Shown: in pieces, positions 27,206 through 61,072 of the stretch
Layout of the letters: each line of letters opens with the position of its first letter
Position numbering within the stretch: the stretch's first letter is position 1
NCBI GenBank assembly: GCA_003116975.1
Contig: BGKB01000027.1
Coordinates: forward strand, 372,001-436,000
DNA from: Aurantiochytrium sp. KH105
Taxonomy: Eukaryota; Sar; Bigyra; Thraustochytrida; Thraustochytriidae
Direction of reading: 5' to 3'
Length of the DNA: 64,000 nt
Notes under the pieces: model-generated
Told to the model about the DNA's origin: nothing
The model's database searches: none
The model's input: the letters and a program-made list of their open reading frames with translations, nothing else
Position numbers and translations under genes: made by a program

Positions 27206-27299
27206 TCGTAGAAAAAGGGAGCCAGAAGCGCTCCAACATTAAGACTGCCGGTGCACCTAAGAGTGCGCACCCCAAAAGTGTGCTGGAGTTGAATGATAG

Positions 27300-28506
27300 C
27301 CCTGGCTAAATTTCGTTCGGTCTAACCGAACGAAATTTTCGGCGAAATAGTTTCCCCGGTATGGCGGCAGGCTGGGTCAGTGAGACCGAACGAAATCTCT
27401 GGCAAACACGCGAGGCATTGCATTTTAAATACTTCTATTCAATTTTAAATCTTGCCGATTGGCCAGATCGTTCCCACGATGCCCCCGCACCCCTCTGCAA
27501 GTTTGCCGGCAAATTCTCCCGGTGGAAGGGTTGTTGTTCTTCTGCAAAGTTGGGTACCGTGAGGGCGAACTTGACCATGACCTAACGACCGCGCTTCATC
27601 AAGCGCTACAGCGGCTACAGCGAGCAGAAAAGCTTGGCAGCGACGCGAGTCACGCTCTGCGATCGTACCCCTGGCATGATCGCGTCCAATTTGTTTGCAT
27701 AGCGGNCTAAACGTGATGTTTAAAGGGACCAGAGCGGATGCGAACGAGCTCGAAGATCCGCCTGAAGAGGTGCCGAATCCGAGAGCACCTGGATATCGAG
27801 CCAGGCATCTCCCTGAGATTTTGTCAAACCGAGCACAGGGCAAGCACATGCAATTGCTGCAAGATCAAGCTTGTGCGTGCACTATATGCTGCACTAAGTG
27901 CGAAAAGGGTCAAATCCCTGACGAACACGCTAGACAAGCTCGTAGGACGCAAAAATGGTGCTTGGCATGTGACACCGCCATCTGCAAGCACTGTTGGGCG
28001 CACTTCCACGCCTCGGATGGTGCTGTCCAGGTAGCTCATGCGAATCTATGAAGCTCCTATACCTTTGCGACTATCCTGGCACGATACGTCGCTCAGCAGC
28101 ACCTCTTGGCATGCTCATTCGCTCATTTTAGCAATTGTGCTCTCATTTGGAGGCCGGCAAATCTTGATCACCCGAGCGCAACGCAATTTGAGATTTGGCT
28201 AGGCGAAACTCACCTAACACAGTCTTAGTCATATTACTCCTAATTAATTTCGTTCGGTCTCACTGTATCGGTCTATTCTGGCCAAATAGGCCACTTATCC
28301 GCCGCCTTCCCCCAAAACTAATTTTCCCTACCCCTTGACCAAAACTGGTTCCCAAGCCTTTAAAATTTGGCACAGCAATCTACGGGCTGAGGTCCTTCCT
28401 TGTGCTTAATTTCAAGGCGCGCGAGCTAGTTTTGAGCGCGCTGGACGAGATCGCGCAAAGGAAATTTCGTTCGGTTTTTCGTTCGGTTTCATGTGGCTAG
28501 CCAGGG
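27300..28506. mobile_element. DNA transposon copy 1 with 4-bp target duplication
   Basis: Bounded by CCCTGGCTA on the left (27300) and TAGCCAGGG on the right (ending 28506), flanked on both sides by ATAG (27296-27299 and 28507-28510). Length 1207 bp. Near each end are copies of TTTCGTTCGGT, arranged as a palindrome on the left (27311-27339, arms TTTCGTTCGGT and ACCGAACGAAA) and as a direct pair on the right (about 28465-28488). Further copies are at about 27385 and 28248. An N occurs at 27706. It encloses a degraded frame with a Cys/His motif like that of piggyBac transposases. A second copy, inverted, lies at 60156-60982. PiggyBac elements duplicate TTAA, so the superfamily is not settled. 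Confidence 0.88.
27716..28051 (+). pseudogene. Transposase C-terminal fragment, Cys/His zinc-binding type
   Basis: A 111-codon frame inside the mobile element, starting just after the ambiguous base. Its C-terminal part has Cys-x2-Cys-Cys-x2-Cys (CTICCTKC), then about 20 residues with several basic residues, then KWCLACDTAICKHCWAHFH. This spacing of Cys pairs ending in an aromatic and His resembles the C-terminal cysteine-rich domain of piggyBac-family transposases. No catalytic DDE core is readable upstream: frames before it are broken by stops. I infer a decayed transposase remnant. An unrelated zinc finger is possible. Confidence 0.4.
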
Positions 28507-28602
28507 ATAGAGTTACGAATACAAATGTGCAAAAGCTTGGCGAGACCTGTTCTCCTTGCTCCTTTCCTCTCTCTCTCTCTCTCTCTGAGCGTCTCTCTAT
28601 GT

Positions 28603-59982: not shown

Positions 59983-60155
59983 AGAATCTGGCAGGCTCCT
60001 TTGCACCTTTCGTTTGACACCTGCACCTGCCACCCACGGCTCAATGTGAGAGAGCAATCGATCTTGCAGCGCGTGCACAATGAGCGCAACGCATTTTTGC
60101 GTAACGGATCATTGTAGAATTTTTCTTCTTTGTGGTGATTTTTTTTATTTGATAA

Positions 60156-60982
60156 CCCTGGCTAGCCACATAAAACGGGACGAAATTGGGACGAAATCTC
60201 TGCTCACGTTATCCGTCTGGGCATGATCAGATCTACACCGCGTGTTATGAAATTGAGCGCAAAGCTAGGTTTCCATGTCTAGATTACTATACTAAAGTTT
60301 GAGATTCTGAAAAGTGTTTTTGATTGAGATTTAGATGAAAGACTGACTTGGCGGCTGCGAGTATAAAGTGGTCTATTTGGTCAGAATAGGTCTCGTCCCG
60401 AAAAACGGGACGAAATTAATTAAGGCTAATATGACTAAGACCCTCTTACTGGAGTTTCGTGTAGTAAATTTAAGAATTGCGTTGCGCTCGGAGAATTTAT
60501 TGCTGCGGCGCTCGCACGTCACCATCCTCAAAGGCGTGCGTCATGGCGTGGACGAACTTGCGCTGCCGACCACAGCGCGAAGAAGGATGATGCGAGAACA
60601 GCTGCGGCACGTCTGCTGGGTGATCTCGTCGTTGCGCGTCGCAACGCGACGCCAAGGTAAGGCTATGCAGCCGTCGCAGCTATCAACGAAGAGCGGTGGT
60701 TAGGCTCCCGCTACAATGCCAACAAGTACCCACTTTGCAGATCATGCTTGATCATGTCTACCGGATGAATCTCCCCGAAAACTTGCATGGCGACGGAGGG
60801 GTATCGTGGGAATAAGCATGCCAACGCGCGAGATTTAAATTTGATCTGGGGTATTTCTTTCAATGACTTTTCTGATTTTTAGATATTTCGTCCCGTTTTT
60901 CGGGCCGAGACTACACCCCGTTTCGGCAAAACTATTTCGCCGATGATTTCGTCCCGAAAAACGGGACGAAATTTAGCCAGGG
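60156..60982. mobile_element. DNA transposon copy 2 (non-autonomous), inverted relative to copy 1
   Basis: 827 bp bounded by CCCTGGCTAGCCACAT (60156) and TAGCCAGGG (to 60982) and flanked by ATAA on both sides (60152-60155, 60983-60986). Read on the minus strand its right end matches the left end of copy 1: CCCTGGCTAAATTTCGT, then a hairpin, then TCGGCGAAATAGTTT. Its left end matches the right end of copy 1 (CCCTGGCTAGCCACAT). An internal block, CTTAGTCATATTA and AATTAATTTCG, is also shared. Every hairpin here uses GTCCCG/CGGGAC where copy 1 uses GTTCGG/CCGAAC. No transposase-like frame is visible, so it is probably mobilised in trans or dead. Confidence 0.88.
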
Positions 60983-61072
60983 ATAATGTTTGTCTTTTGG
61001 TGCATTGACGTATACGCGAGAGTGAGATGGATCAAAGCGAAAGAGAAAAGAAGTGGAGTAAAGGATTGTAAA
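60983..61072. other. eIF5B 3' flank next to mobile element
   Basis: Only 86 bp separate the right target duplication of the second mobile element from the stop of eIF5B, so the element probably sits in or next to the eIF5B 3' UTR. Confidence 0.5.

Follow-up and report, generated by a model that had tools for sequence, protein, structure and literature searches.

The 64,000-nucleotide window of Aurantiochytrium sp. KH105 DNA analysed here carries two related transposons, at 27300-28506 (copy 1) and 60156-60982 (copy 2), whose internal palindromes differ in both arms at once, and this raises the question of how all the sites of one element came to bear the same variant. A previous sequence-only reading described two copies of one family with hairpin cores, and proposed either a recognition-site switch matched to different transposases or homogenisation within each element. 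The coordinates, termini and 4-bp duplications that it gave are exact (ATAG on both sides of 27300-28506 and, on the + strand, ATAA on both sides of 60156-60982), and the left palindromes are as it described them. The parts of the two elements are as follows.

27300..28506, + strand: copy 1, a B-type element (TTCG core) broken by a probable assembly gap
27296..27299: left target-site duplication of copy 1, ATAG
28507..28510: right target-site duplication of copy 1, ATAG
27300..27308, + strand: left terminal inverted repeat of copy 1, CCCTGGCTA
28498..28506, - strand: right terminal inverted repeat of copy 1
27310..27336: left palindrome of copy 1, two inverted half-sites, ATTTCGTTCGG (S1 27310-27320, S2 27326-27336)
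27386..27396, - strand: subterminal half-site S3 of copy 1, TTCG core, partner arm not complementary, context as in the B reference
28247..28257, + strand: subterminal half-site S4 of copy 1, TTCG core
28464..28486, + strand: tandem direct half-sites S5/S6 of copy 1, 12-bp period, compared with the B reference
27706: single N of copy 1, a probable collapsed assembly gap, corresponding to positions 404 to 1772 of the C8 copy
27695..28051, + strand: C-terminal transposase remnant of copy 1 with a cysteine-rich domain (CxxCCxxC...CxxC...CxxC...FH), homologous to the 417-aa C26 frame
60156..60982, - strand: copy 2, an 827-bp A-type element (TCCC core) without a transposase of its own
60152..60155: target-site duplication of copy 2, ATAA (+ strand)
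60983..60986: target-site duplication of copy 2, ATAA (+ strand)
60946..60972: left palindrome of copy 2, two inverted half-sites, ATTTCGTCCCG
60885..60895, + strand: subterminal half-site S3 of copy 2, TCCC core
60406..60416, - strand: subterminal half-site S4 of copy 2, TCCC core
60176..60197, - strand: tandem direct half-sites S5/S6 of copy 2, 11-bp period

When the flanks of copy 1 and copy 2 were joined over a single duplication, they matched C32:341428-341729 (92%) and C32:373213-373536 (94%), respectively. Both junctions are uninterrupted on C32, and the two copies are therefore insertions absent from the homologous region. Copies 1 and 2 are cut-and-paste insertions with 4-bp duplications; the C32 sites are unoccupied, uninserted versions of these loci rather than products of footprint-free excision. 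C27 and C32 appear as two homologous versions of the region (92-94% identity), perhaps haplotypes or the result of a hybrid, a reading consistent with the 76-Mb assembly total.

The length of copy 1 is unreliable, because the N at 27706 stands at the exact point where its match to the 2,571-bp C8 copy skips from position 404 to 1772 and because an N is present in 17 of the 19 B copies, compared with none of the 29 A copies, among the copies and fragments compared. Its 1.2 kb is thus probably the artefact of a collapsed assembly gap. The 827 bp of copy 2 recur exactly in 13 A copies compared, with 0-27 pairwise differences.

Matching 4-bp flanks were found in 22 of the 31 copies with both termini, and all 22 conform to NTAN (CTAA 8, ATAG 4, TTAT 3, ATAA 2, CTAG 2, and TTAG, TTAA and GTAT 1 each), a pattern that accounts for 3% of the 4-mers in the genomic DNA compared. 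The TTAA specificity of piggyBac-type elements is not seen here, TTAA being found in 1 of the 22 matched pairs. Unequal flanks occurred in 9 of 18 A copies with both termini (in C274 due to Ns) versus 0 of 13 B copies, and these nine were left out of the duplication count; they (e.g. C115:116120, C89:96795 and C24:225008) may reflect recombination between copies or one-ended events.

Examination of the ends showed that the "hairpin" consists of two inverted copies of an 11-bp site, ATTTCG-NNNN-G, which is present six times per element at homologous positions. The NNNN core is TTCG in subfamily B (copy 1), TCCC in subfamily A (copy 2) and GGTA in a further subfamily, C, whose ends were read in one element, C97. 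The A, B and C references share one layout, with an inverted pair at the left tip followed by one inverted subterminal site, and, on the right side, one direct subterminal site and two tandem direct sites near the tip; in each reference, 6 of 6 homologous half-sites bear the core of that subfamily. Written out over all sites the motif is (A/T)TTTCG-NNNN-G, with a near-constant ATTTCG hexamer and a terminal G that is mostly kept, S5 ending in A in families A and C. Together, the two leftmost sites make up a palindrome that spans bp 11-37, counted from the tip, and the left ends are identical across A, B and C from bp 1 to 16 and begin to diverge at bp 17. The left palindrome of C97 (C97:199911-199957) carries a small internal duplication of the core arm that is absent from the other five left ends of type C.

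To count core types across the genome, we searched for the pattern CCCTGGN{1,8}ATTTCGN{6,36}CGAAAT, which sets the outer ATTTCG/CGAAAT arms and leaves the core free. The 63 rows obtained comprise 47 family left ends, 14 second lengths of the same place and 2 unrelated places. By core, 19 left ends are of type A (TCCCG...CGGGA), 22 of type B (TTCGG...CCGAA) and 6 of type C (GGTAGT...ACTACC). The core arms are complementary in 47 of 47, each left end having one of three self-complementary cores, so that the claim of arms co-varying beyond chance holds. Elements mixing cores, which would have spoken against the sequence-only reading, were looked for and found in 0 of 47 site-bearing copies (48 copies and fragments compared, 29 A and 19 B, fragment C99 having no site). 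At the level of half-sites, with mutated cores left out of the counts, the core of the other subfamily was met in 0 of 132 sites of A-type copies and 0 of 99 sites of B-type copies.

A wider palindrome search gave 156 matches, compared with 9 in a reversed control. Among the 40 of these 156 matches listed were the families, scattered matches and one other recurring palindrome, AATTTCGTGCT...AGCACGAAAT, which lies outside the CCCTGG-tip pattern at C3:616975-617009 and C26:868116-868150; matches of the same length are found at C32:86364, C32:113502 and C72:100729, the letters being known for C3 and C26 alone.

Complementary arms in all 47 left ends are what would be expected if a real DNA or RNA hairpin were recognised, as in REP/RAYT or IS200-type systems, where a hairpin is the recognised object, and if compensatory changes kept its fold. 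However, the same cores are also found at single and tandem direct, non-palindromic sites of the elements, including S3 and S4 of B, where the partner arm lacks complementarity, and cut-and-paste of double-stranded DNA is indicated by the terminal inverted repeats together with the 4-bp duplications of the target. In the REP/RAYT literature available to us, palindromes of bacteria are paired with matching transposase lineages, a likeness to the present elements; REP/RAYT systems differ in that single-strand hairpins are recognised, by an unrelated enzyme. We regard recognition of a folded hairpin as very improbable. Because single and tandem direct sites bear the same core, the conserved object is better read as a set of putative inverted protein-binding half-sites than as a DNA hairpin.

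To compare the ends of the subfamilies, a three-way alignment was made with one reference per family (one A site is placed one base off). The cores differ at 2 of 4 positions between A and B and at 4 of 4 between A and C and between B and C; counted over the aligned core positions, agreement is 12/23 (A-B), 0/23 (A-C) and 0/24 (B-C). The constant motif positions are identical between families at 36, 37 and 41 of 42 (86-98%), and the end spacers at 61-65%, the A-B value being about 65%. Copies 1 and 2 are thus akin, as had been noticed, and belong to two old sister subfamilies rather than to one homogeneous family.

Could the sites of one element have been made uniform by copying among themselves, through gene conversion over short tracts, through template switching or through the inverted duplication of pieces of the ends? 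Such homogenisation predicts the uniform cores observed within elements, and traces compatible with it are present: B sites S3 and S4 have 19 bp in common, 8 of them past the half-site (TCTCACTG), and a T5 spacer is common to three A palindromes. Against this, the half-sites of one element are preceded by differing 8-bp stretches upstream of the hexamer, and the adjacent spacers can still be aligned between families, which would demand very short tracts starting at the motif. Homogenisation alone also leaves the 86-98% identity of the constant motif positions between families unexplained, and we regard it as unlikely.

A second possibility is plain descent, in which A, B and C would be old separate families with inherited sites under ordinary purifying selection only. 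The low identity of the end spacers and the near-saturated synonymous divergence of the A and B transposases (see below) agree with it, but it would require six homologous sites to have arrived at the same new core with their hexamers hardly altered, an outcome that independent drift cannot give, and we consider it improbable. The concerted sites leave about four independent columns in the core, too few to show that the core itself changed faster than the spacers. Within subfamily A, motif and remaining positions did not differ in conservation over all eight diverged copies, truncated ones included (Fisher p=0.76); in the three of these with both termini, a subset picked after the eight-copy result was known, 171/173 motif positions versus 1988/2202 of the rest were conserved (p=1.3e-5).

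Does the core type go with the transposase? The B elements C8, C26 and C44, in which both ends are present, contain a 417-aa open frame beside other disrupted frames. For type A the link is provided by C173 alone, the 19 A-type left ends having no known transposase: C173 has an A-type right end, without a left end, and a 331-aa C-terminal transposase piece at a contig end, which is 66% identical to B in the genome search and 70% identical to the C310 frame. Taken region by region, identity is 73-81% for the nuclease and DDE parts, falls to 37% for the linker and is 65% for the cysteine-rich domain (CRD). All six C-type left ends are followed within the next ~2 kb by a transposase match (38-66% to B over blocks); in C97, identity to the B transposase is 51% in the main block and the CRD is degenerate. 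Core type thus goes with transposase lineage, a correlation that holds across the three lineages as judged from these alignments, and the check suggested by the sequence-only reading comes out in its favour for B (C8, C26, C44), C (6 of 6) and A (C173).

The A-B transposase dS is ~1.9 (near saturation, a rough estimate), with dN/dS ~0.13, and dN/dS among B copies is 0.7-0.9 in three comparisons, as for dead copies. The A, B and C transposase lineages are related but old; because A-B dS is near saturation, the lineages split long ago and no recent switch took place inside one family. Of the proposed site switch matched to the transposase, the association of core and lineage is retained.

We then asked what the transposase resembles. 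Its closest protein relative, P0001 from Hondaea fermentalgiana (FCC1311_015262), aligns with C152 in three blocks, two of them at 98% identity and one at 94%, and on this one gene the host is probably a thraustochytrid very close to Hondaea. The 1307-aa ORF of C152 covers the N-terminus of P0001 and the nuclease-to-CRD part of P0003. Further relatives are found in the diatoms Skeletonema dohrnii (P0008, 1178 aa) and Thalassiosira exigua (P0010 and P0012, partial). These three share the order (x)DDDK, then, ~80 aa on, FFxxRGYL and GTxK, a nuclease-like block (NE, SPDG, E-x-K and Q motifs) and WNKxMGxVD; a cysteine-rich end is present in P0008 and P0010, and P0012 stops at its start. At motif level a putative DDD triad can be placed, with ~77-81 aa from D1 in (x)DDDK to D2 in FFLDRGYL in P0010 and P0012 and with D3 in G(N/H/G)VD; P0008 has N at the D2 position.

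When hand-chosen sub-blocks were used as profiles against PDB, the third-Asp (VD) block gave piggyBac 6X67 as its sole match at E<=10 (weak, E=0.059), and the nuclease block likewise gave solely mimivirus R354 (weak, E=0.041-0.042), which we take to be a lambda-exonuclease-type nuclease. With a whole-protein profile, 6X67 was third of four matches (weak, E=0.6); two other whole-protein profile searches returned no piggyBac, one of them scoring best (E=0.0021) against an acidic segment in an unrelated protein, and an N-terminal DDE profile retrieved no piggyBac structure from PDB. The C-terminal cysteine-rich zinc finger of the piggyBac superfamily is present, PF13842 scoring 26.1 bits (cut-off 24) in the relative P0003 and the cysteines being aligned in A, B and copy 1; the B ORF itself does not reach the PF13842 cut-off. 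PF13843 (DDE_Tnp_1_7), the catalytic family expected of the superfamily, had no match in the B ORFs or the relatives scanned, and its six places in the genome are all other than these transposase loci. PF09588 (YqaJ, cut-off 22) was approached or passed in the C270 ORF (1306 aa; 21.9 bits, 23.7 with neighbours) and the C24 ORF (1272 aa; 21.4 bits, 24 with neighbours), both of which are also matched by the B transposase. The 4 places listed in the genome search with PF09588 include neither C152 nor the loci of A, B and C, and the nuclease pieces of P0012 and P0004 had no Pfam match. Searches of the B, A and Hondaea proteins against Pfam, PHROGs, NCBIfam and directly against PDB gave no significant match, and a scan of viral contigs with P0003 gave no relative. 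From these sequence comparisons, in which piggyBac kinship rests on weak matches, we read the protein as a piggyBac-like transposase with an embedded nuclease, and do not file it as canonical piggyBac.

The likeness extends to the DNA. As in piggyBac of Trichoplusia ni, whose tip begins CCC, the elements have a CCC tip, a 4-bp duplication with a central TA and palindromic internal repeats from about bp 17, along with the third-Asp block (weak match, E=0.059 to 6X67) and the C-terminal CRD. The architecture of short terminal repeats and palindromic internal repeats is present, and binding of the latter by the CRD is predicted by analogy. Unlike piggyBac, these elements target NTAN instead of TTAA, repeat the half-site six times, leave PF13843 unmatched and have transposase relatives in which a YqaJ-like nuclease separates Asp 2 from Asp 3. 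That nuclease-like block resembles YqaJ/lambda-type exonucleases and R354 in the motif order N-E, SPDG, E-x-K and Q and in its weak matches to PF09588 and R354, and differs from them in being embedded in a transposase-like ORF. In piggyBac, core domains hold the first 16 bp of the end and a CRD dimer binds bp 17-33 (PMC7351741). In piggyBat of Myotis lucifugus, a unit made up of a hexamer (bp 11-16) followed by a palindrome occurs three times (PMC11707139), an arrangement similar to ours; the sequences differ, and in our elements no 3-bp gap precedes the variable palindrome, which begins at bp 17, and the sites lie at both ends. PiggyMac of Paramecium, a domesticated protein, likewise makes breaks centred on TA (PMC6143343), and differs in that its CRD does not bind DNA (PMC8086355).

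Taken together, these data make it reasonably probable, in our view, that copies 1 and 2 represent two sister piggyBac-like cut-and-paste subfamilies whose core is read by the CRD and in which sites and transposase changed together. A transposase lineage would shift its core specificity, and the sites of one element would be forced to follow and to change together; selection, and not copying, would have matched the sites to the transposase. Because the left end is constant up to bp 16 and its palindrome is variable from bp 17 onwards, as in the core/CRD split of piggyBac, the CRD most likely reads the variable core from bp 17 and co-diverged with it. For types A and C, the CRDs read are those of one transposase piece and one degenerate copy, respectively, from which no residue-to-base code is derivable. 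Since the ATTTCG hexamer accompanies the core at each site, the CRD may bind it as well.

More tentatively, and with somewhat less than even confidence, we propose a stramenopile piggyBac-like branch, in thraustochytrids and diatoms, with a YqaJ-type nuclease between Asp 2 and Asp 3 and an NTAN target, in which the core would have switched at least twice and dragged six sites along while a hexamer read by the catalytic core stayed fixed. If true, the relaxed NTAN target and the embedded nuclease would widen the known range of piggyBac-type machines. Three sister subfamilies of the same layout, with three clean 4-bp cores and recognisable CRDs in two, constitute a natural specificity series, and suggest that an enzyme and its docking sites changed together. 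In a literature search of limited scope, which claims no absence from print, piggyBac was not found together with thraustochytrids, nor Hondaea fermentalgiana with transposable elements; papers joining piggyBac and YqaJ were judged unrelated, as were those on piggyBac and NTAN among the papers listed.

C152, with its 1307-aa ORF, was considered as a fourth core type and rejected, no such motif being present in the ~470 bp that follow its stop codon; for C143 the sequence read beyond the stop was <100 bp, a length uninformative on core type. Stop-free ORFs of ~1.06-1.4 kaa that match the transposase are found at C152, C40, C270, C24, C13, C65, C34, C17, C36, C143, C77 and others, several of them in apparent homologous pairs, and some of these long ORFs may be domesticated genes.
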